In this document: piece by piece, positions 36,155 to 48,066 of the stretch | Layout: the number at the start of each line of letters is the position of its first letter | How positions within the stretch are numbered: position 1 is the stretch's first letter | NCBI RefSeq assembly: GCF_000015565.1 | Contig: NC_008786.1 | Span: 5,382,501 to 5,446,500 of the forward strand | Origin: Verminephrobacter eiseniae EF01-2 | Lineage (GTDB): Bacteria; Pseudomonadota; Gammaproteobacteria; Burkholderiales; Burkholderiaceae_C | Reading direction: 5' to 3' | Length of the DNA: 64,000 nucleotides | Notes under the pieces: generated by a model | Told to the model about the DNA's origin: nothing | What the model saw: the letters and a program-made list of their open reading frames with translations, nothing else | The model's database searches: none | Made by a program: the position numbers and the translations under genes

Positions 36155-36805
36155 TCAGCCCTGCCCGGCCTTGTGCACGCCCAGCGAGAGGATCTCGCTG
36201 GCGTTGACGATGGCGGCGGCAATCTCTTCCATGGTCGTGCGCTTGCTCATCGCCTGTTCGCGGATCAGGTCGTAGGCCTGGCCTTCGGACACGTTGTGCG
36301 TCTTCATCAGCACGGCCTTGGCTTCGGTGAGTTGCCGCACGCCGAGCAGTTTGGCCTCGACCTTGCGCAGGCGCCGCGCGAGCGAGCGGCTTTCCTTGTG
36401 CGCCTCGCGCGCCACCACCAGCGCCGACAGCAGCCCGAACGAGCGCACCGGCGAAGGCAGCACCGCCTTGGCGCCGATCTCCAGCACGGCTTCGACGATG
36501 GTCGGGTTCTCGTAGGTGACGACCGCGATGATGGCAGGGGCGTCTTCGCTGTGCGCCCACTCGAAGCGCAGGTTGATGAAGTCTGGCTGCACCGCCATGA
36601 AGGCGACATCGATGCCTTCGGGCAGGACTTGCACCGGCGGCCAGAAGACTTGCACCTGGCAGCCGATGCGCTGCAACTGCTGCGTCAGTTGGCGCCCGTC
36701 TGCGTCGTCGGGGTGGAGCACCGCGATCTTCAGCAGCCGCAGCTCTTTCAATTGCGGCGAGGTCACCCGCAGGGTGTGTCTTTTCGGGGCTGCGCCGTCC
36801 GCCAC
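36155..36805 (-). CDS. amiR: AmiR-type ANTAR antitermination regulator
   Basis: This 216-aa protein has an N-terminal receiver-like domain without the usual phospho-acceptor set (LKIAVLHPDDADGRQLTQQL) and a C-terminal ANTAR RNA-binding domain (ESRSLARRLRKVEAKL ... SEGQAYDLIREQAMSKRTTM). AmiR of Pseudomonas binds leader RNA and prevents termination of the amidase operon; AmiC silences it until an amide binds. Here it follows amiC by 2 bp and ends the cluster. Its likely target is the leader terminator 5' of urtA (46673-46720). Confidence 0.88.
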   Translation of the reverse strand: MADGAAPKRHTLRVTSPQLKELRLLKIAVLHPDDADGRQLTQQLQRIGCQVQVFWPPVQVLPEGIDVAFMAVQPDFINLRFEWAHSEDAPAIIAVVTYENPTIVEAVLEIGAKAVLPSPVRSFGLLSALVVAREAHKESRSLARRLRKVEAKLLGVRQLTEAKAVLMKTHNVSEGQAYDLIREQAMSKRTTMEEIAAAIVNASEILSLGVHKAGQG

Positions 36806-36807
36806 GC

Positions 36808-38025
36808 TCAGACCTCCCGCCGGGCCGCGCCAAGGCAGGCTTGTGCTCCCTCGTCGGGGCAGGGTTCATCCCGGGCCTCCAGTGTGTCGAGCCTGGCCGT
36901 CCAGTCGCCCAGCGAATGGGTGACGAGGTACGGGTCGGGGTACACCGCGCGCGTGGCCTGCCGCACGATGGTGAATTGCCCGTGCGCATCGACCCGGCCC
37001 ACGCGCGGGTAGAGGCAGGTGTGATGGTTGCTCGGGTCGATCTTCACGCGGCCCTGCGGTGCGTCGAACTCGCTGCCAAGGATGTGCGGCAGTATCTCCG
37101 CGATGCCATCGCTGCCCGCCTGCCGATAAGCGTTGGCGAAGATGTGCATCTGGAAATACGCAGCCTCCCAGCACAGGTTGGGCACGCAGCCGTCGCCGAA
37201 GCGTGCGCGCAGCCGCGCCAGGCAGATCCGGTTGGCGGCCGAGCCGATCGACTGGAAATACGGCGCAGCCGTGAAGTGCCCGGTGGCCACGCCATGGCCC
37301 ATCTGCGAGATCTCGGCCTCCGAAGTGGTCAGGCTCGCGATCGGCATGGCCTTGGGGTCGAAGCCCGCCTCGGCATACGCGCGGTACAGGCTTGCGGTGG
37401 AATCGCCCACCACGGTCGAGAAGATGAAGTCGGGCCGCTTGTCGCGGATGTCGTCCATGATGGCGCGGTAGTCCTTTTCGGTGGCGTCCAGCGCCACATA
37501 GCGCTCGCCCAGTTTCTCGCTGCCGGGGCGCTGCAGCACCAGTTCGCCCATGATGCGGTTGGACTCGTAGGGGTAGATGTAGTCCGAGCCGATCAGGTAC
37601 ACGCGCGCACCGAAGTGCGTGGTCATGAACTCGGCCAGTTGCACGCTGTTTTGGTTCGGCGCGGCGCCGGTGTAGATCACGTTGCCCGAGTACTCGAAGC
37701 CCTCGTAGAGCGTGGGATAAAACAGCAGCTTGTTCCACTTCTCGATCACCGGAATCACGGCCTTGCGGCTGCTCGACATGTAGCAGCCGAAGATCACGTT
37801 GACGCGGTCCTGCACGATCAGTTTTTCGGCCAGTTGGGCGTAGCGCGCGGGGTTCGATTGCGGGTCGTGGCGCACGGCCACGATCTCGCGGCCATCGACG
37901 CCGCCGGCGGCGTTGATTTCCCCGATGGCCAGCAGCGCGCCCTGCAACTGCGACAGCCCGATGGTCGAGGTGACGCCGGTTTCCGAGTAGAGGATGCCGA
38001 CGCGAATGGGGTCCTTGTCAGCCAC
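36808..38025 (-). CDS. amiC: AmiC-like amide sensor, cytoplasmic binding-protein fold
   Basis: This 405-aa protein has the type I periplasmic-binding fold (IRVGILYSETGVTSTIGLSQ, VIFGCYMSSSRKAVIPVIEK, LLFYPTLYEGFEYSGNVIYT). It lacks a signal peptide, as expected for AmiC, which binds amides in the cytoplasm and releases AmiR. It starts at a GTG with AGGAG upstream. It is related to UrtA of the same cluster, but its position beside amiR and the missing signal favour a sensor. Confidence 0.85.
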   Translation of the reverse strand: MADKDPIRVGILYSETGVTSTIGLSQLQGALLAIGEINAAGGVDGREIVAVRHDPQSNPARYAQLAEKLIVQDRVNVIFGCYMSSSRKAVIPVIEKWNKLLFYPTLYEGFEYSGNVIYTGAAPNQNSVQLAEFMTTHFGARVYLIGSDYIYPYESNRIMGELVLQRPGSEKLGERYVALDATEKDYRAIMDDIRDKRPDFIFSTVVGDSTASLYRAYAEAGFDPKAMPIASLTTSEAEISQMGHGVATGHFTAAPYFQSIGSAANRICLARLRARFGDGCVPNLCWEAAYFQMHIFANAYRQAGSDGIAEILPHILGSEFDAPQGRVKIDPSNHHTCLYPRVGRVDAHGQFTIVRQATRAVYPDPYLVTHSLGDWTARLDTLEARDEPCPDEGAQACLGAARREV

Positions 38026-38114: not shown

Positions 38115-39818
38115 CTACGCGCCGCCATTGCCCTGGCACACGAGCCGCGCATGCATGCGTGCCAGGCGCGCCGGCAGGCTGCGCGCGTCGTGAACAGCGC
38201 AATAGTTGTGCCAGCCGAAGATGCGGCGCATGCAGGCATCGGCCGCGCTGTCCACTGCGATGCAGCCGGTGCGCACGCCGGCGGCGCGTGCTTCGGCCAC
38301 GGCCATGCGGGCGTCTTCGATCAGGTACTGCGGGTCGTGCACGTCGATGTCGGAGGGCGCGCCGTCGGTCACCAGCAATAGCGCGCGCTGCCCGGCCGGC
38401 TCCGTGCGCAGGTGCGCGCTGGCATGGCGCAGCGCGGCGCCGATGCGCGTGGAATAGCGCCCGCGCAGCGCGCCTATCATGGCGCGCTCGTTCGCCTGGA
38501 GCGGCTTGCCGAATTCGAGCAGGCGGTAGTAGTACACCTCGTTGCGCGTGTTGGACGAAAAGCCGTGGATCGCCAGCCGGTCTGCGCTGTTGCGCGCATT
38601 CGATGCGGCCAGCAGCAGTGCGGCCTGCTTTTCGATGTCGAGCAGCGAACAGGTCTGGCCCGGCCCCGGGTGGTTCACCGACTCCGACAGGTCGAGCAGC
38701 ACCAGCATGCTGGTCGCGCGCAGCACCTTGCCGGAGCGCATGAACAGGCGCGGATCAGGCCGCAGTCGCAGGCGCCGGTCGACCAGCGCCTCGATGGCCG
38801 CGTTCAGATCGACATCGTCGCCTTCCCACTGGCGGCGCAGCCGGCGCGTGCGCTCCAGGTGGCGCGCGCGTGGCAGCGCGGGCGGGGTGAGACGTTCGTC
38901 GTTCGCCGCCCTCTGTTCGCGCATCGACGAAAGGCCCTGCCATGCCGGCATCTTCTCGATCACCGTGCACCAGCCGGGCCGCAGGCGTTCCTGTTGGCGC
39001 TCCCATTCGGGGTAGCGGTAGCGGCCCAGTTCCAGTTCGGCGCCGCCTGCGGGGGACGGGCCGCTGCCGTCACCGGTGGCTTCGGCCGGCGGCGGCGGCC
39101 ATGCGCCCGAGGCTTGCAGCGCGATGGTGTCGTCCGGCGGCGTTTGGGCCGCGCCGAAATCCCAGAGGTAGCTGTTGTCGTCGCGCCAGGGCGCCGGCAC
39201 CGCGCAGTGCTGCGGGTCCAGGCGCACGCGCATCTGGCCGAGGTCGTTGGCGAGGATCGAGGCGATGGCGCGGAAGGCGGCGTAGTCCTCCAGCCCTGCG
39301 CGGGCCACGGTCGCGTCGAACAGGCGGCGCGCTTTGTTGACCCAGTGGTTGTCGTCCTGCCAGGCGGGCAGCATCAGCAGGCGGTCCATGCGCGCGATGA
39401 ATGCCGCAAAGCCCAGGTCGGACGCATCGGGCGGCGGCGCCAAAGCGTCGACGAACCAGCGCCGGACACCGGGGAAGTCGCGGCACAGCAGTTGTTCGAC
39501 CCGGGCGTCCTCGATGGCCGATGCCAGCGCGATGCCCATGGGCCCGAGCGGGCGTGCCGGCCTGGCGGGCGCCGAGTGCCGAAGATGCGCCGCCGCATGG
39601 GCGACCATCGCGCGGTGCAGTCGGGCGTCGCTGCCTTCGGGCAACAGCAGCCGCTTCGGCGTGAGCACGGCGCGCGCAAGCGGCGCGAGCGCGTTCAGCG
39701 GCAACCGGTTTGCGCTGCCCGGCACGGTGGCCAGCGGCTGCACCGCCATGTCGACACCGGCCAGCCCGCGCGCCAGCAGGCCCAGCGCGTCAAAGGTGAG
39801 GGCGTGGCCGTGGCTCAT
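38115..39818 (-). CDS. NorD/CbbO-like von Willebrand A-domain protein
   Basis: This 567-aa protein ends in a VWA domain with an intact MIDAS-type metal site (VLLDLSES ... LVTDGAPSDIDVHD). Long N-terminal helical regions match NorD/CbbO proteins, which act with MoxR-type ATPases to insert cofactors or activate enzymes. It overlaps the ATPase gene by 4 bp (ATGA). Its place between amidase and amiC suggests it helps activate the amidase or transporter; that is inference. Confidence 0.82.
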   Translation of the reverse strand: MSHGHALTFDALGLLARGLAGVDMAVQPLATVPGSANRLPLNALAPLARAVLTPKRLLLPEGSDARLHRAMVAHAAAHLRHSAPARPARPLGPMGIALASAIEDARVEQLLCRDFPGVRRWFVDALAPPPDASDLGFAAFIARMDRLLMLPAWQDDNHWVNKARRLFDATVARAGLEDYAAFRAIASILANDLGQMRVRLDPQHCAVPAPWRDDNSYLWDFGAAQTPPDDTIALQASGAWPPPPAEATGDGSGPSPAGGAELELGRYRYPEWERQQERLRPGWCTVIEKMPAWQGLSSMREQRAANDERLTPPALPRARHLERTRRLRRQWEGDDVDLNAAIEALVDRRLRLRPDPRLFMRSGKVLRATSMLVLLDLSESVNHPGPGQTCSLLDIEKQAALLLAASNARNSADRLAIHGFSSNTRNEVYYYRLLEFGKPLQANERAMIGALRGRYSTRIGAALRHASAHLRTEPAGQRALLLVTDGAPSDIDVHDPQYLIEDARMAVAEARAAGVRTGCIAVDSAADACMRRIFGWHNYCAVHDARSLPARLARMHARLVCQGNGGA

Positions 39819-40633
39819 TCGAACTGCGCGGCGACGAAGCCCTGCAGCGCGCTGGCCATGTCAGGGTCATCGGTGAGCGCGCGTGCCATCGTCATGTCGC
39901 AACTGTCGCGTGGCGACACGCCATCGCGGATCAACAAGCCGGCGTAGATCAACATGCGCGTCGATATGCCTTCGTCGAGCCCGCGCTGCCTGAGCGCGCG
40001 CGAACAGCGCGCAATCGCCACCAGTTTCGCGGCCAGGTCGGTTCCGACCCCGGCCTCATGCGCGACGATCTCCGCTTCGAGGCCGCTGTCGGGGTAGTCG
40101 AACTCCAGCGCCGCGAAGCGCTGCCGTGTCGAAGGCTTCATGTCCTTCGCGCTGCTCTGGTAGCCGGGGTTGTACGACACCACCAGTTGGAAGTCGGGGT
40201 GCGCGCGCACCAGTTCGCCCTTCTTGTCGAGCGGCAGGATGCGGCGCGCGTCTGTCAGCGGGTGGATCACCACCGTCGTGTCCTGCCGCGCCTCGACCAC
40301 CTCGTCGAGGTAGCAGATGCCGCCGTGGCGCACCGCCAGTGTCAGCGGGCCGTCATGCCAGGCCGTGCCATTGGCGTCGAGCAGATAGCGCCCGACGAGG
40401 TCGGAGGCCGTCATGTCTTCGTTGCACGCCAGCGTGACCAGTGGCCGCCCGAGCGACCACGCCATGTGCTCGACGAAGCGGGTCTTGCCACAGCCGGTCG
40501 GGCCTTTGAGGATCAGCGGCATGCGGTGGCGGTACGCCTGCTCGTAGAGCGCCACCTCATTGCCCGCAGGCCGGTAGAAAGGCTCGCGGTCGATGCGGTA
40601 GCTGGCAAGCAGATCGGGGCTGGCGGCGTTCAT
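39815..40633 (-). CDS. CbbQ/NirQ/NorQ-type AAA+ ATPase
   Basis: This 272-aa MoxR-family ATPase has Walker A (LKGPTGCGKTRFVEHM), Walker B (GGICYLDEVVEAR), the sensor region (FQLVVSYNPGYQ) and a C-terminal CbbQ-type lid. Such ATPases form hexamers that work with a VWA partner, here the next gene. In Pseudomonas amidase operons a different ATPase (AmiB) occupies a comparable place. A chaperone for amiE is plausible but unproven. Confidence 0.87.
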   Translation of the reverse strand: MNAASPDLLASYRIDREPFYRPAGNEVALYEQAYRHRMPLILKGPTGCGKTRFVEHMAWSLGRPLVTLACNEDMTASDLVGRYLLDANGTAWHDGPLTLAVRHGGICYLDEVVEARQDTTVVIHPLTDARRILPLDKKGELVRAHPDFQLVVSYNPGYQSSAKDMKPSTRQRFAALEFDYPDSGLEAEIVAHEAGVGTDLAAKLVAIARCSRALRQRGLDEGISTRMLIYAGLLIRDGVSPRDSCDMTMARALTDDPDMASALQGFVAAQFE

Positions 40634-40705: not shown

Positions 40706-41743
40706 TCAGCGGTGCCTGGCCGGCTCGTTCGGCAGGCCATCGATCGGGCACTCGGGCGTGCCGACCGTGGTGCGCGTGAACGACTCCACCATCTGGCGCG
40801 TGCCCTCGGGGTCGTTGATCCACTGCGTGTAGAAGTCGTAGGGGCAGGCCGCCAGGCCCTTGTCGCCGTCGCCCGAATGGATGGTGCCGGTGTAGCCCCG
40901 GTGCACGAGTTTGAACAGGTGGTTCTGCGACTGGCCGTTCTTGCGCGCATCGCGGATCAGGCCCATCGAGAGTTCGGCGTAGTTGATGCCCATCTCTTCC
41001 TCGCCGCATTCGCCGAGCGTGCGGCCGTCGAAGCCGATCAGCGCCGAGTGGCCGAAGTACGAGTACACGCCATCGAAACCGGCCGCGTTGGCCACCGCCA
41101 CATAGGTGTTGTTCATGAAGGCCATGGCCTTGGACACCAGAATCTGCTGCTCCTTGGCCGGGTACATGTAGCCCTGGCAGCGGATGATGAGCTCGGCGCC
41201 GCGCATCGCGCAGTCGCGCCAGATCTCGGGGTAGTTGCCGTCGTCGCAGATGATCAGACTCATCTTCATGCCCTTGGGGCCTTCGCTGACGTAGGTGCAG
41301 TTGCCCGGATACCAGCCTTCGATGGGCACCCACGGCATGATCTTGCGGTACTTCTGCACGATCTCGCCCTTGTCGTTCATCAGGATCAGCGTGTTGTACG
41401 GCGCCTTGTTCGGGTGCTCTTCATGGCGCTCGCCGGTCAGCGAGAACACGCCCCAGACGCTGGCGCGGCGGCAGGCGTGCGCGAAGATCGCCGTTTCTTC
41501 GCCGGGCACGGTGGCGGCGGTGTCGTACATCTCCTTGGCGTCGTACATGATTCCGTGCGTGGAGTACTCCGGAAAGATCACCAGGTCCATGCCCGGCAGG
41601 CCTTTTTTCATGCCGACCAGCATCTCGCCGATCTTGCGGGCGTTGTCCAGCACCTCGGCCCTGGTGTGCAGGCGGGGCATCTTGTAGTTGACGACCGCGA
41701 CGCCGACGCAATCGTTGCTGCTCGAAATATCACCATGTCTCAT
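40706..41743 (-). CDS. amiE: Aliphatic amidase
   Basis: This 345-aa nitrilase-superfamily enzyme hydrolyses short aliphatic amides to acid and ammonia. The catalytic triad falls at the numbering known for AmiE: Glu59 (IFPEYSTHG), Lys134 (KYRKIMPW) and Cys166 ([11 protein letters not shown]). It follows urtE, so transport and hydrolysis are co-transcribed. Its ammonia and carboxylate products link to formate dehydrogenase elsewhere in the window if formamide is used. Confidence 0.95.
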
Positions 41744-41785: not shown

Positions 41786-42475
41786 TCACACGGTCAGGAA
41801 GGACCTGACCTTGTCCTGGTCGAGGTTTGAGCGCGCTGCGTCGTGCACGATGCGTCCGCGGTCGATGACGAGAAAGCGGTCGGCCAGGTCGAGCGCGAAG
41901 CTCAGCACCTGCTCCGACACCACGATGGCAAAGCCGCGCTCGGCGCGCAGCAGGTTCAGCGTCTGCGCGATCTCCTCGATGATCGAAGGCTGGAGGCCCT
42001 CGGTCGGCTCATCGAGGATCAGCACCCGGGGCCTGGAGATCAGCGCGCGCGCCAGCGCCAGCATCTGCTGCTGGCCGCCCGAGAGGTTGCCGGCGCGGCG
42101 CTGTTTCATGTCCTCGAGCACGGGAAAGAAGCGGTAGATGTCATCGGGCACCGTGCGATGCCCCGACTTCGCTGCGCCCGAGAGGATGTTCTGCTCCACC
42201 GTCAGCAGCGGAAACACCATGCGCCCCTGCGGCACGAAGGCCAGGCCCTGCGCCACACGCTGGTAGCTCGGCAGCTTCGTGATGTCGGCGCCGTCCAGGC
42301 GGATGCTGCCGGCGCGCGCGGGCAAGAGGCCGATGAGCGATTTCAGCAGCGTGGTCTTGCCCATGCCGTTGCGCCCCATGATGGCGAGCGCCTCGTTCGG
42401 CGCGACACGCAGCGACAAATCGCGGATGACATTCGACTCGCCGTAGGCGACGTTCAGTTCGCAGACTTCGAGCAT
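41786..42475 (-). CDS. urtE: Urea/amide ABC transporter ATPase UrtE
   Basis: This 229-aa LivF-like ATPase has Walker A (GRNGMGKTTL), signature LSGGQQQ and Walker B (LILDEPTEGL). I start at the ATG at 42475, which has AGGAG 9 nt upstream; an ATG at 42484 directly abuts that site and is less likely. It starts 14 bp after urtD. Followed by amiE in the same direction. Confidence 0.9.
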   Translation of the reverse strand: MLEVCELNVAYGESNVIRDLSLRVAPNEALAIMGRNGMGKTTLLKSLIGLLPARAGSIRLDGADITKLPSYQRVAQGLAFVPQGRMVFPLLTVEQNILSGAAKSGHRTVPDDIYRFFPVLEDMKQRRAGNLSGGQQQMLALARALISRPRVLILDEPTEGLQPSIIEEIAQTLNLLRAERGFAIVVSEQVLSFALDLADRFLVIDRGRIVHDAARSNLDQDKVRSFLTV

Positions 42476-42489
42476 CTTTGCCATCTCCT

Positions 42490-43290
42490 TCAATGGCCGA
42501 GGTACACGGCGATCACGCGCGGGTCGGCCTGCACCTCGGCCGCCGTGCCTTCGCTCAGCAACCGGCCCTGGTGCAGCACCGTCACACGGTGCGCGATGCG
42601 TTTGACGAAATCCATGTCGTGCTCGATCACCACCACCGACTTGCCGGCCGAGATGCGCCGCAGCAGGTCGCCGGTCTGCTCGCGCTCGCGCGCGCTCATG
42701 CCGGCGACCGGTTCGTCGAGCAGCAGTAGTTCCGGCTCCTGCATCAGCAGCATTCCGATCTCCAGCCATTGCTTTTGGCCATGGCTGAGTTGTCCGGCGC
42801 GGTCGCCGATGCGCTCGCTCAGAAAGACCTGCCCGGCCATCGCATCGATGCGCGCGCGCAGTGCCGGCGTGCGGCGAAAGCCCAGCGACTGCAGCAGGCC
42901 GTGCATGCGCGGCAGCGAGAGCTCGAAGTTCTCCAACACCGTGAGGTCCTCATAGACCGAGGGCGTCTGGAACTTGCGGCCCACGCCGGTGCGCACGATC
43001 TCATACTCGTTCAGGCGGCCGAGGTCCTGGCCGTTGAACAGCACCCGGCCCGCGCTCGGCCGGGTCTTGCCGCAGATCATGTCCAGCAGCGTGGTCTTGC
43101 CCGCGCCGTTCGGGCCGATGATCACGCGCAGCTCGTTGCGCTCGACCGAGAGGCTCAGGCCGTCCACGGCCTTGAACCCGTCGAAGGAGACCGTGAGCCC
43201 CTCGACACGCAGAATCTGCTCGTTCGCATCGGCGAACCCCGCAGCCGCCTGCGGCAAGCTGCCGCCGGGCATGGCCAGCGCGATGCTCAT
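42490..43290 (-). CDS. urtD: Urea/amide ABC transporter ATPase UrtD
   Basis: This 266-aa LivG-like ATPase has Walker A (GPNGAGKTTL), the unusual signature LSHGQKQWLEIG typical of UrtD, and Walker B (LLLLDEPVAG). The start is the ATG at 43290, overlapping the urtC stop (ATGA); an upstream ATG at 43311 would add seven residues. Confidence 0.9.
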   Translation of the reverse strand: MSIALAMPGGSLPQAAAGFADANEQILRVEGLTVSFDGFKAVDGLSLSVERNELRVIIGPNGAGKTTLLDMICGKTRPSAGRVLFNGQDLGRLNEYEIVRTGVGRKFQTPSVYEDLTVLENFELSLPRMHGLLQSLGFRRTPALRARIDAMAGQVFLSERIGDRAGQLSHGQKQWLEIGMLLMQEPELLLLDEPVAGMSAREREQTGDLLRRISAGKSVVVIEHDMDFVKRIAHRVTVLHQGRLLSEGTAAEVQADPRVIAVYLGH

Positions 43291-44342
43291 GGCGCGGCCT
43301 GCGCGCTGCATCTACGCAGCAACGTCCGGCCCAGGCCGGCAAGGCCGTTCGGCATGGCCCAGACCACGAGGATGAAGACGGCACCCAGGAAGTACAGCCA
43401 GCCTTCGGGAAAAGTCTCCGACAGGTACGACTTGAGAAAACCGATCAGCAGCGCGCCGATCACCGCGCCCGGAATCGACAGCCGCCCGCCGACCGCCGCA
43501 TAGATCACCATCTCCACCGAAGCGACCACGCCGATCACGCCCGGCGCGATCAACCCCACCTGCAGGCTGTAGAAGGCGCCCCCGATGGCCGACAGCACGG
43601 CGGCCAGCGCGAACACGAAGGCCTTCATGTGCGCCGTGTCGTAGCCGCTGAAGCGCACGCGGTCTTCCTTGTCGCGAATCGCGATCAGGATCTTGCCGAA
43701 GCGGCTGCGCACGATCACCAGCGACACGGCCATCACCAGCGCGATGGCCAGCACCTCGACGAAGTACATGACGCGCTTGGCATCGTCGCCGGTAATGTCC
43801 CGGCCCAGCAGCGTGCGGAAATCGGTGATGCCGTTGGCGCCGCCGGTCTCGCCCTGCTGGCCGACCACCACCACGGTGAGCGCCAGCGCCAGAGACAGCG
43901 TGACGATCGCGAAGTACACGCCGCTCACGCGCCGCTTGAAAATCGCGTAGGAAAACAGATACGCCAGCACGGCCGGAATCGCAAGGATGCCCGCGACAGT
44001 CCAGCCCAGCGAGTGAAATGGAATCCACCACCAGGGCAACTGCTCGACGCTGCTCCACACCATGAAGTCCGGCAGTTCGGGCGCCGAGGCTTCGAGCTTG
44101 AGGAACATGGCCATCATGTAGCCGCCGAGGCCGAAGAACATGCCCTGGCCCAGGCTCAGCACGCCGCCGTAGCCCCAGGTCAGCACCACGCCGACCGCGA
44201 CGAACGCGAAAGCCAGGTACTTGCTCACGAGGTTCAGCCGGAAGGGGTCGAGCGTGGCCGGCAGCACGACGGCCAGTAGCAGCAGCACGGCGGCCATGCC
44301 GGCGAGATCGCCCTTGCGTTCAGCACAAAGCCGGTTGCGCAT
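43287..44342 (-). CDS. urtC: Urea/amide ABC transporter permease UrtC
   Basis: This 351-aa LivM-like permease has about ten hydrophobic helices and the family segments WGYGGVLSLGQGMFFGLGGY and GGRLSIPGAVIGALLIG. Its TGGANGITDF loop is typical of UrtC. ATG 44342 lies 4 bp after the urtB stop. Confidence 0.9.
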   Translation of the reverse strand: MRNRLCAERKGDLAGMAAVLLLLAVVLPATLDPFRLNLVSKYLAFAFVAVGVVLTWGYGGVLSLGQGMFFGLGGYMMAMFLKLEASAPELPDFMVWSSVEQLPWWWIPFHSLGWTVAGILAIPAVLAYLFSYAIFKRRVSGVYFAIVTLSLALALTVVVVGQQGETGGANGITDFRTLLGRDITGDDAKRVMYFVEVLAIALVMAVSLVIVRSRFGKILIAIRDKEDRVRFSGYDTAHMKAFVFALAAVLSAIGGAFYSLQVGLIAPGVIGVVASVEMVIYAAVGGRLSIPGAVIGALLIGFLKSYLSETFPEGWLYFLGAVFILVVWAMPNGLAGLGRTLLRRCSAQAAP

Positions 44343-44346
44343 GCCG

Positions 44347-45249
44347 TCAACCCCGCGACCGTATCGCGAACAGCCCGTTGGGCCGCAGGCACAGCACCGC
44401 AATCGCCAGCAGCAAAATCGTGGCCCTGGCCATCGAGCCGCTCATCAGGTACTCCAGCCAGGTCTGCGCCTGCGCGATGGCAAAGCCCGAAAGGGCCGTG
44501 CCGATCAGGCTTTGCACGCCGCCGAACACCACCACGATGAACGCGTCGACGATGTAGAGCTGGCCGGTGCCGGGGTTGGTCGAGCCGATCATCGTGAACA
44601 CCGCGCCCGCGATGCCCGCCAGGCCGCAACCGAGCGCGAAGGTCATCGCATCGACGCGGCGGGTGTCGATGCCCACCGCGCCGGCGATGGCGCGATTTTG
44701 CGTCACCGCGCGCACCTTCAGCCCCCACGGCGTGCGGTATAGCAGCAGGTACACGCCGATGGCGACGACGGCCGTCAGCCCGGCGATGAAGATGCGCGTC
44801 AGCGGCAACTGTATGCCCGCCGTCGGCTCCCACGCCCCCGCGAGCCACGAGGCCAGCGGCACGCTCACCTCCTGCGCGCCGAAGATGGAGCGGTAGGACT
44901 GCTGCAACATCAGGCTCAGGCCCCAGGTGGCCAGCAGCGTGTCCAGCGGCCGGTCGTAGAAAAAGCGGATGAAGCCGCGCTCGAGCAGATAGCCGAACGC
45001 GAAGGTCACGGCAAACGCGAACGGGATCGCGGCGAACAGGTACAGATCCATCCAGCCCGGCGCGAAGTGCCCGAAGAAACGCGCCGCCAGGTAGGTCATG
45101 TACGCGCCCAGCGCCATCAGCTCGCCGTGCGCCATGTTGATGACGCCCATCAGGCCGAACACGATGGCCAGCCCGATGGCCATCAGCAGCAAGATGGTGA
45201 ACAGGCTCACGCCGTTGAACATCTGCATCACCGCAATGTCGAAGTTCAT
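44347..45249 (-). CDS. urtB: Urea/amide ABC transporter permease UrtB
   Basis: This 300-aa LivH-like permease has the conserved FGLMGVINMAHGELMALGAY and GLSLMLQQSYRSIFGAQ, characteristic of UrtB. Multiple transmembrane helices span the protein. It begins 36 bp after urtA. Confidence 0.92.
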   Translation of the reverse strand: MNFDIAVMQMFNGVSLFTILLLMAIGLAIVFGLMGVINMAHGELMALGAYMTYLAARFFGHFAPGWMDLYLFAAIPFAFAVTFAFGYLLERGFIRFFYDRPLDTLLATWGLSLMLQQSYRSIFGAQEVSVPLASWLAGAWEPTAGIQLPLTRIFIAGLTAVVAIGVYLLLYRTPWGLKVRAVTQNRAIAGAVGIDTRRVDAMTFALGCGLAGIAGAVFTMIGSTNPGTGQLYIVDAFIVVVFGGVQSLIGTALSGFAIAQAQTWLEYLMSGSMARATILLLAIAVLCLRPNGLFAIRSRG

Positions 45250-45285: not shown

Positions 45286-46479
45286 TCAGACCTTGGGGAA
45301 GGGGTTGGGCTCGATCAGTCCGGACGATTCCCACACGATGTCGAACTGGCCATCGGGCCGCGCACGGCCCACGCGCACCTTCTTCCATACATGGTGGTTG
45401 CTGGCGTGCACGCGCACCGTGCCTTCGGGCGCTTCGATCTCCACGCCGGCCGCGGCGGCCGTGACCTTGTCGACATCGAACGACTTGGCCTTCTCGGCCG
45501 CCAGTTTCCACAGATACACGCAGTTGTAGGCCACCTCCATCGGGTCGCCGATCACGCGCTCCGACCCATACTTGGCCTTGAAGGCTTGCACAAACTTCTC
45601 GTTGGCCGGCGACTCGATGCTCTGAAAGTAGCCCATGCAGGCGTAGTAGCCGGCGGCGTTGTCTTTGCCGATGCCTTCGATCTCGTTTTCCGACACCACG
45701 GTCGACAGCAGCACCTGCCTGGCGCCATCGAGTCCCGCTGCGCGCAGTTGCTTGTAGAAGGCCACGTTGGAGCCGCCCACCACCGTGCTGTAGATGCAGT
45801 CGGGCCTGGCGGCCTTGATCTTGTTGATGATCGACGAGAACTCGGTGTGGCCCAGCGGCGCATATTCCTCACCCACCACCTTGCCGCCGGCCTTGGTGAT
45901 GGCCGGCTTGGCAATTTTGTTGCAGGTGCGCGGATAGATGTAGTCGGAGCCGACGAGGAAGAAGCTCTTGCCCTTCTCGCGCGCCATCCATTGGACCGCC
46001 GCGATCACCGACTGCGTGGCCTCCTGCGAGGGGTAGAACACGCGCTTGTCCTGCTCCTGGCCCTCGTAGTAGGTCGGGTAGAACAACAAGCCCTTGGCCT
46101 GGCTCAGCACCGGCAGCAGCGCCTTGCGCGAGGCCGAGGTGTAGCAGCCGATGATGGCCGCGACCTTGTCGCGCTCGAGCAGCTTGCGCGCCTTTTCGGC
46201 GAACACCGGGTTCTCGCTGGCGCCGTCTTCCACCACGGCCTCGATCTTCTTGCCCAGCACGCCGCCGGCGGCGTTGATCTGTTCGATGGCCAGTTTCTCG
46301 GCATCGACCAGCGCAGCCTCGGCGATGGCGATGGTGCCCGACAGCGAATGCAGCAGCCCGAGCTTGACGGTGGCACCGTCCTGCGCGGCGGCCAGCCTGG
46401 CGACACCGCCTGCGGCGCCCAGCACGATCATCGAGCCGCCGGTCTTGACGATCTGGCGGCGGTTGAAGGGGTTCGTCAT
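45286..46479 (-). CDS. urtA: Urea/amide ABC transporter substrate-binding protein UrtA
   Basis: This 397-aa periplasmic receptor has a twin-arginine-type signal (NRRQIVKTGGSMIVLGAAGG) and the UrtA-like core (LGLLHSLSGTIAIAEAALVD, GCYTSASRKALLPV, LFYPTYYEGQEQ). In this context it may bind short amides as well as or instead of urea. ATG 46479 has AAGGAA upstream. It is the first gene of the ten-gene cluster and lies ~190 bp behind a leader terminator. Confidence 0.92.
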   Translation of the reverse strand: MTNPFNRRQIVKTGGSMIVLGAAGGVARLAAAQDGATVKLGLLHSLSGTIAIAEAALVDAEKLAIEQINAAGGVLGKKIEAVVEDGASENPVFAEKARKLLERDKVAAIIGCYTSASRKALLPVLSQAKGLLFYPTYYEGQEQDKRVFYPSQEATQSVIAAVQWMAREKGKSFFLVGSDYIYPRTCNKIAKPAITKAGGKVVGEEYAPLGHTEFSSIINKIKAARPDCIYSTVVGGSNVAFYKQLRAAGLDGARQVLLSTVVSENEIEGIGKDNAAGYYACMGYFQSIESPANEKFVQAFKAKYGSERVIGDPMEVAYNCVYLWKLAAEKAKSFDVDKVTAAAAGVEIEAPEGTVRVHASNHHVWKKVRVGRARPDGQFDIVWESSGLIEPNPFPKV

Positions 46480-46672
46480 GTCAAATTCCTTTGCTCTGTG
46501 TGGGCGCTGGTCATCGGGAACATCCGATCTTCGAAGCCGCGCATCGGGCGCCTTCTCCCGCCGCATGGCCGCTGCAAACGAGCCTGGAACGCCACCGGTT
46601 TTCTTCGGGCAAAGCTGCGCCACTGGATGACGCGCATCCGTTTGGCAAGGGCTTCGATGCGACCGAGAAAAC

Positions 46673-46720
46673 AAAAAAGCCCGAACCGGTGTTGAAACCG
46701 ATTCGGGCTTTATTGCCCGA
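46673..46720 (-). terminator. Leader terminator with overlapping antiterminator hairpin
   Basis: Read on the minus strand, GCCCGAATCGGT (46708-46697), a 6-nt loop, ACCGGTTCGGGC (46690-46679) and six T form a strong intrinsic terminator 194 bp before urtA. Just upstream, TCGGGC-AATAAA-GCCCGA (46720-46703) forms a second hairpin that uses the terminator's 5' arm, so only one of the two can form. This is the arrangement expected for ANTAR-controlled antitermination. Confidence 0.75.
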
Positions 46721-46808
46721 CGCCTCGCTGGCAGCATTGGCAGCGGGTGTCGTATGACTGGTAACGATTGCTCGTTGGGGCGGATTCTTCTCAATTCAGC
46801 CCGGCATG

Positions 46809-46837
46809 AATATAAGCGTTTTCCCTAGTTGTCTAAA
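46809..46837 (-). promoter_or_regulatory. Candidate promoter of the urt-ami cluster
   Basis: On the minus strand, TTTAGA (46837-46832), a 17-bp spacer and TATATT (46814-46809) resemble sigma-70 -35 and -10 boxes. They lie about 90 bp before the leader terminator. Confidence 0.4.
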
Positions 46838-47094: not shown

Positions 47095-48066
47095 TCATGT
47101 CGTCCTGACAGCCGGGCGGCTGAGTATCTGCGCAAACATGTCGTGATCGACATTGCCGCCCGATAATGCCAGGCCGACGCGCAGTCCCGCCAGGCGCGGG
47201 CGAATCTGCATGGCCGCTGCCAGCGCCGCCGCGCCAGCACCTTCGGCGACGTTGTGGGTGGCGGTGAAATAGAGTTTCATGGCGGCGGCCACTTCGTCGT
47301 CGCTCACCGCCATGATTTCCTCAACCTGATCGGAAATCACTGCCAGCGAGGATTCGTCCGGCACGCGGCAGGCCACGCCATCGGCGATGAGCGTCGTCAC
47401 CGGCGACTCCACCTTGCTGCGACTCTCAAACGATAGCTTGTACGCCAGCGCATGGGCCGACACCACACCGATGATGCGCGTGCGCAGATTCAATGCGCGC
47501 CGGGCAGCCACGGCAGCGCATATTTCCGAACCCTGCCCAATCGGCACGAACAACACATCCAGATCAGGCTGCGCGCGCAGCAACTCCATCCAGCAAGTCG
47601 CCACGCCGCAGACCAGATCGCGGTGAAAGGAGGGGATCATATGCAAGGCATCGCGCTGCGCCAGCATCACGGCATGCTCGCGGCTTTCCTGAAATTCCTT
47701 GCCATGCTCGACCAAGGTCACGCCGAGAGCGCGCATGGCGGCATTCTTTTCCTTGCTGTTGCCGTGCGGGACCACGATGGTGGCGGCGATGCCATAGCGG
47801 CGCGCCGCAAAACCGACCGACTGCCCGTGATTGCCGCGGGTGGCCGAAATCACACCGCTGGCACGCCGCTCTTGCAGATAGACCAGGCCGCCGCGCACCT
47901 TGAAGGCGCCAGTCGGCGTATGGTTCTCGTGCTTGACCCAGGTCTCGGTGCCGAGCGCGGCATTGAGCAAGGGCCAGGAATATTGCGGCGTCGCCGGCAT
48001 GGCGGCATACACGAGCTTGGCGGCTTGTTCTATCTCGGCGTGGCCTGGCAGCAACAAATCATTCAT
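47095..48066 (-). CDS. Threonine/serine dehydratase-like PLP enzyme
   Basis: This 323-aa fold-type II PLP enzyme deaminates threonine or serine to a keto acid and ammonia. The PLP lysine is in TGAFKVRGGL, and the phosphate-binding loop is ALSGGNVD near the C-terminus; TRGNHGQSVGFAARRYG is typical. It has no ACT regulatory domain, so it resembles the catabolic form. Substrate among hydroxy-amino acids is unsettled. It is divergent from lexA. Confidence 0.83.
   Translation of the reverse strand: MNDLLLPGHAEIEQAAKLVYAAMPATPQYSWPLLNAALGTETWVKHENHTPTGAFKVRGGLVYLQERRASGVISATRGNHGQSVGFAARRYGIAATIVVPHGNSKEKNAAMRALGVTLVEHGKEFQESREHAVMLAQRDALHMIPSFHRDLVCGVATCWMELLRAQPDLDVLFVPIGQGSEICAAVAARRALNLRTRIIGVVSAHALAYKLSFESRSKVESPVTTLIADGVACRVPDESSLAVISDQVEEIMAVSDDEVAAAMKLYFTATHNVAEGAGAAALAAAMQIRPRLAGLRVGLALSGGNVDHDMFAQILSRPAVRTT

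Follow-up and report, generated by a model that had tools for sequence, protein, structure and literature searches.

A predicted AmiR-controlled attenuator with a variant second hexaloop heads a urea-type transporter–amidase operon in Verminephrobacter eiseniae

The window, a stretch of 64,000 nucleotides from Verminephrobacter eiseniae EF01-2, carries on its minus strand an operon that runs from urtA (46479) to amiR (36155) in the order urtABCDE-amidase-cbbQ-vwa-amiC-amiR, preceded by a structured leader (Table 1).

Table 1. Genes of the operon and elements of its leader, with positions numbered along the window
Feature	Positions	Strand	Evidence
amiR, ANTAR antiterminator	36155..36805	-	E 5.7e-21 to AmiR 1qo0
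amiC, amide sensor of UrtA/AmiC fold	36808..38025	-	E 3.6e-98 to P. aeruginosa AmiC
VWA-domain partner	38115..39818	-	PF00092
CbbQ/NorQ-type AAA ATPase	39815..40633	-	PF07728, PF08406
Aliphatic amidase, AmiE-like	40706..41743	-	NF009802 715.2 bits (cut-off 427)
urtE-like ATPase, approximate start	41786..42484	-	PF00005
urtD-like ATPase	42490..43311	-	PF00005
urtC-like permease, start uncertain	43287..44402	-	PF02653
urtB-like permease	44347..45249	-	TIGR03409 379.6 bits (cut-off 250.3)
urtA-like substrate-binding protein	45286..46479	-	TIGR03407 518.1 bits (cut-off 492.75); PF13433
Terminator T-tract, of which the first three T belong to the stem as well	46667..46678	-	
Intrinsic terminator stem-loop, 15-pair stem	46676..46711	-	terminator scan and minimum-energy fold
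P2 antiterminator hairpin TCGGGC-AATAAA-GCCCGA, core GGGC/GCCC, A1 without G4	46703..46720	-	
Outer P1 helix, 3′ strand GGCGTCG, directly adjacent to the P2 core	46718..46724	-	
P1 hairpin CGCTGCC-AATGCT-GCCAGCG, hexaloop A1/G4	46726..46745	-	
Outer P1 helix, 5′ strand CGACACC	46746..46752	-	pairs with 46724-46718
P0 short hairpin AACG-AGCAAT-CGTT, perhaps extreme 5′ end of transcript	46763..46776	-	
-10-like box AAGAAT, inferred promoter, start ~46777	46784..46789	-	by eye on alignment A2

A preliminary description of this DNA had assigned the last two genes of the cluster to AmiC and the ANTAR protein AmiR, and the matches in Table 1 agree with it: the two reading frames are adjacent, the first encodes a protein of the UrtA/AmiC fold and the second one with a C-terminal ANTAR domain (52.5 bits against a cut-off of 27.3). 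The genome also encodes, remote from the operon, a second and higher-scoring UrtA-type protein, and there is one urease alpha match elsewhere (UrtA-type and urease entries G000:C2:3583986 / G000:C2:1924546); hence, the transporter of the operon may serve amides rather than urea.

The same description had placed in the urtA leader an intrinsic terminator whose 5′ arm is shared by an alternative hairpin. Both structures were recovered: the terminator, by scan and by fold, as a stem at 46711-46676 followed by a T-run, and the alternative hairpin, here termed P2, at 46720-46703, with its 3′ arm inside the 5′ arm of the terminator, such that the two cannot form together. The P2 hexaloop indeed has A at position 1 and A, not G, at position 4. 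The first of the two hairpins usual in ANTAR targets, which had been reported missing, is in fact present as P1 (46745-46726); its loop has both A1 and G4, with a C.C mismatch under the closing pair, and its outer helix contains one A.C mismatch. Accordingly, the interval first described, 46673..46720, falls inside the element and covers about half of it, the whole reaching from ~46752 to 46667. The linker from P1 to full-length P2 is 5 nt in the window, which lies within both the 5-12 nt given for eut genes and the 2-25 nt of an actinobacterial survey in the passages available to us (PMC8164766), and the distance from P1 to the P2 core is 8 nt in 32/32 aligned leaders. The predicted promoter of the leader RNA is uncertain: hexamers resembling a -10 box stand at the position equivalent to AAGAAT in many relatives (by eye, alignment A2), whereas a promoter scan prefers another site, TTTAGA-17-TATATT at 46837-46809.

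RNA structure prediction, which had been proposed as a check, returns a minimum-energy fold for the leader that contains the terminator and has a z of -5.24, none of 200 shuffles being as good. Evaluated as fixed structures, extended P1 with the P2 core comes to -21.2 kcal/mol and extended P1 with the terminator to -42.5, and an RNA truncated before the terminator 3′ arm is predicted to fold into extended P1 plus P2. Thus, on these energies, the antiterminator would form before the terminator and then be displaced unless something holds it.

To place the leader among its relatives we used 80 loci, mostly from Burkholderiales, gathered by one amidase scan, in 41 of which amiR was seen; 34 of these 80 and the window itself make up a set of 35 leaders that was selected with a P1-core pattern. 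Of these 35, 32 entered alignment A1 (L008, L014 and L051 being omitted as near duplicates, and L052, L055, L059, L074 and L077 likewise standing outside it), and 24 entered alignment A2. The preliminary description had staked its reading on the paired arms being conserved in relatives; P1, P2 and the terminator are all kept, and the outer P1 helix and the terminator covary. Over the 32 leaders extended P1 plus the P2 core have 94.5% of cells paired, with 8/16 pairs changed on both sides, and slid control versions of the same structure pair in 20 to 52%. Taken separately, extended P1 is 93.3% paired with both-sided changes in 7/13 pairs (5/7 in the outer helix), the terminator is 94.4% paired with such changes in 8/15, and the P2 core, mostly invariant, is 100% paired with 1/3 pairs changed on both sides, so that the covariation of P2 by itself is weak. 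Pairing is poorer at the base of P2, where 9/32 leaders are unpaired at one pair, as would be expected if the bases there are part of the outer helix of P1. The shuffles used in these helix comparisons take no account of relatedness. Farther upstream, the 24 leaders show P0 paired in 93.8% of cells; its covariation score exceeds 500/500 shuffles, but its both-sided pairs (3/4) are no more than shuffles give (376/500). That the P0 loop might serve as an additional, third ANTAR hexaloop was considered and rejected, the loop being free to vary among the 24 leaders.

The common thread in these leaders is a pair of adjacent hexaloop stem-loops, the P2 loop being 6 nt long in 30/32 and 7 nt in L026 and L056. 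A1 is present in the P1 loop and in the P2 loop of 32/32 each, G4 in the P1 loop of 31/32, the window included, and the C.C mismatch below the P1 closing pair in 32/32. Position 4 of the P2 loop is A in 30/32, T in 2/32 and G in none. Among more distant AmiR loci G4 does occur in P2, namely in both units of L052, in L144 and in three of four loci with divergent amiC-amiR described below; P2 is without G4 also in L145, L146 and L151. Since G4 is absent throughout the 32 and present in distant AmiR loci, its absence from P2 is a conserved state of this Burkholderiales lineage, neither a chance change in the window nor a property of the whole order. In the parts of the relevant papers that we cite, the leaders of amiE, nasF and eut are reported to have A1 and G4 in both P1 and P2 (PMC3369936, PMC3369931), G4 is termed obligatory for EutV in a structure paper (PMC8934654) and single changes are allowed in an actinobacterial ANTAR survey (PMC8164766). 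Given that the departure of its P2 loop from the A1/G4 rule is conserved, we classify the element, by its sequence features, as a variant of the canonical ANTAR-target RNA with one failed feature, G4 in P2.

The distribution of the element follows that of amiR. Three loci, L012, L054 and L068, have a leader that is truncated or lies beyond the contig; the count of amiR-linked loci with a leader is 39, including L050, whose contig ends before amiR and which we took as linked. A P1 core with a terminator lies at the operon head in 34 of these 39, the gene behind it being urtA in 23 and, in the other 11, an amidase with no urt genes directly before it; the P1 core with terminator lies 5′ of the amidase in 0 of the 38 loci in which no amiR was seen. 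Three extra matches to the P1 pattern occur elsewhere (in L047, in L059 on the minus strand and in L076 at 2972). A covariance-model search covering the window and 48/80 loci recovered the element in L074 (76.6 bits) and L077 (69.9 bits), and the amiR-linked L052, L055 and L059 have clearly diverged leaders with candidates at 28.1 to 42.4 bits. L052 (4829-5028) displays tandem attenuators, two P1-P2-terminator units in which every loop is A1/G4, and L055 and L059 have further terminator units with A-rich hexaloops upstream of urtA. The CbbQ/NorQ ATPase and VWA pair (38115-40633 in the window) accompanies the amidase in 66/80 loci and in 41/41 of those with amiR, with no match in the four divergent loci (L147-L150); passages of PMC13209695 suggest amidase assembly or activation as the role of such pairs.

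In the genome of the window itself the model has one strong site, at 104.7 bits; the next independent place scores 18.1, and the terminator's own reverse complement 31.8. Across the order, 64/300 genomes gave a match with an E-value of at most 0.001. The weak matches that we examined, 29 places outside the window's genome, comprise 8 dual hexaloops (L088-L092, L094 and L095 by script, L097 by eye) and 21 apparent plain terminators, and the script match in L101 is a terminator loop; scores do not separate the two classes there, real elements lying at 35-37 bits and plain terminators reaching 36. Four genomes of the same order (G029, G224, G075 and G254, corresponding to L147-L150) have amiC-amiR divergent from urtABCDE-amidase and a dual-hexaloop leader 5′ of urtA, with P1 loops AAAGGC or ACAGGC (A1/G4) and P2 loops AAAGAA (A1/G4) in three and AAAAGA in G029.

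These comparisons bear on the simplest alternative, that the terminator serves only to end transcription of the threonine dehydratase gene upstream (47095-48066, minus strand) and that the hairpins are incidental. That gene does share the strand of the terminator and lies 0.4 kb ahead of it, terminators are common, and the covariance model also matches plain terminators at ~20-36 bits. However, in the available stretches of the 80 amidase loci a threonine dehydratase query has no match, although the element is conserved and stays at the head of the amide operon among relatives; and P1 covaries though it lies outside the terminator. We therefore regard this alternative as very improbable, and rejected the terminator of the dehydratase gene as an explanation on account of the missing match in those stretches.

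A natural counterpart to these leaders is found in 15 Variovorax loci that have the same amidase without adjacent amiC/amiR. By eye, the upstream region and the terminator are retained in the leaders of these loci, but P1 and the P2 5′ arm are gone. A dual A1-hexaloop pair is found in 0/15 of these relic leaders, in 33/35 P1-core leaders, a figure that is partly circular as they were picked by that core, and in 56/3000 random 200-nt stretches. In whole-genome searches an AmiR of at least 85% identity was found in 0/15 relic genomes and in 4/4 positive genomes, at 88-91%. A more distant AmiR-like protein occurs in 9/15 relic genomes, eight with one or two at 34-38% and L036 with one at 63%; the other six have no AmiR match, as is the case for L018, a further genome. 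Hence, to judge by these sequences, P1 and P2 are absent together with a close AmiR. In the amidase gene tree the 15 relics are not grouped, with weak support, which is compatible with one loss as with several. These leaders, with the terminator kept and P1, P2 and a close AmiR absent, offer a ready evolutionary control.

They also weigh on the proposal that the leader is a ligand-binding or protein-free attenuator (a riboswitch or a leader peptide) in which AmiR is uninvolved. Such attenuators likewise use mutually exclusive hairpins, but P1 and P2 are missing in the 15 leaders from genomes without a close AmiR, nothing in the window matches an Rfam family at its gathering score, and a small ORF is not conserved, as the ATG in the P1 loop is missing in relatives reading AGTGCT (by eye, A1), on which ground a leader peptide was rejected; little credence is left to this proposal. 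It is just as hard to believe that another ANTAR protein reads the site instead of or besides AmiR, since, although the genome encodes a second one (G000:C2:2929987, L001, predicted to be NasT-like) whose ANTAR domain scores 76.4 bits and keeps R142, K149, E160, Y164, R168 and M172, the element goes with linked amiR and is missing wherever there is no close AmiR.

Accordingly, we propose, with a probability of about 0.9, that the leader is an AmiR-controlled transcription attenuator by which amide uptake and hydrolysis would be switched on together. At the sequence level, the ANTAR-attenuator reading of the preliminary description is supported by the anatomy (an A1/G4 hexaloop 5 nt before P2), the mutual exclusivity arising from the P2-terminator overlap, conservation with compensatory changes, the operon-head position whichever gene comes first and the joint absence with a close AmiR; G4 in P2 is the single expectation that failed. 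In P. aeruginosa AmiC holds AmiR when inducer is lacking. Amide binding by AmiC releases AmiR there, as related in passages of the literature. By analogy, we infer for the window that AmiR binds the leader, that an amide is the signal and that binding favors read-through. Without inducer AmiC would hold AmiR; RNA polymerase would make P1 and, briefly, P2, the 3′ arm of which would be captured by the far more stable terminator, and transcription would stop ~100 nt in. Upon amide binding to AmiC, the freed AmiR could bind the A1/G4 hexaloop of P1 and stabilize P2 beside the extended P1 stem; with P2 held, the terminator could not form, and transporter, amidase, sensor and antiterminator would all be made, which would constitute a positive loop.

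The nearest known system, the amiE leader of P. aeruginosa, is alike in its AmiC/AmiR homologues, an operon with an aliphatic amidase, a leader terminator and two preceding stem-loops, as presented in excerpts of PMC3369936; there, according to the portions of the papers considered, both loops are A1/G4, whereas here P2 is A1/A4, and the operon opens with a Urt-type ABC transporter and includes the CbbQ/VWA pair. Matches to P. aeruginosa AmiR did not exceed 36% in 398 and 369 sampled genomes, and none of at least 60% was found in a plasmid collection. With the dual hexaloop motif of EutV, known from the eut genes of E. faecalis (Ramesh et al. 2012, PMC3369931, in part), the element shares the P1/P2 hexaloops, the short spacing and the P2-terminator overlap. 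It differs in the lack of G4 in P2, in a P1-P2 spacer that itself pairs as the 3′ side of the conserved outer helix of P1 and in the C.C mismatch under the P1 closing pair (32/32). Portions of that paper also note ANTAR RNA matches preceding, among others, urea transporters. Plasmid acetamidase operons, treated in passages of PMC13209695, combine the same kinds of genes in one operon, amiE-amiC-amiR being joined by an ABC transporter or by CbbQ/NorD; here, in contrast, a single operon unites the CbbQ/VWA pair with five Urt-type transporter genes. Our literature search found no description of this leader, and those passages of PMC13209695 contain no leader RNA analysis. With the proposed attenuator, AmiR-type antitermination would reach operons in which an amidase is coupled to a urea-type ABC transporter. 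It would also provide a natural test of the rule that G4 in both loops is obligatory for EutV, as the lineage conserves a P2 without it and same-order relatives keep it, and a motif search demanding A1/G4 in both loops would miss such switches.

As for how AmiR might read such a target, the window AmiR keeps the EutV contacts K149, E160, Y164, R168, M172 and R175; it has V, R, E, S and T at 142, 143, 147, 173 and 177, the contacts R142, K147, N173 and R177 being lost. Position 147, which touches P2 in the EutV crystal, is K/R in 10/12 AmiRs whose P2 has G4 (seven of one type plus L148-L150, the exceptions being L052 and L144) and in 3/24 whose P2 has none (L074, L077, L147). R142 is absent in 21/21 of the lineage, but also in 5 AmiRs with P2 G4. 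In these proteins residue 147 follows the P2 loop loosely and residue 142 poorly, and shared descent may explain the trend at 147; a strict link between AmiR residues and the G4 of P2 was rejected because of the exceptions. The trend at 147 fits recognition of G4 in P1 alone by the AmiR of this Burkholderiales lineage, whereby P2, freed from that demand, would stack end to end on the long P1 stem and one recognized hexaloop would be enough, a scheme that we offer tentatively and consider rather doubtful.

A related module is seen between amiR and the next genes in AmiR loci of another type (L133-L138, L140 and L142). It comprises a hairpin (GAGC-AGGTTT-GCTC in L133-L136), a P1-like hairpin and a P2, GGC-TnnGnA-GCC, that overlaps a terminator. 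G4 is present in P2 in 8/8, with T1, and in the P1-like loop in 4/8. The AmiRs of this type have T at position 172 in 7 aligned proteins; L134 is in alignment A3 and its AmiR is absent from the protein alignment.

Finally, a conserved block at ~46790-46830, upstream of the -10-like box (around GCGAAA..ACGTATGT; by eye), is common to Variovorax leaders with and without AmiR, and TACGT-N6-ACGTA occurs near the amidase in L060 and L063 (by eye); these are possibly candidate sites for an activator independent of AmiR.
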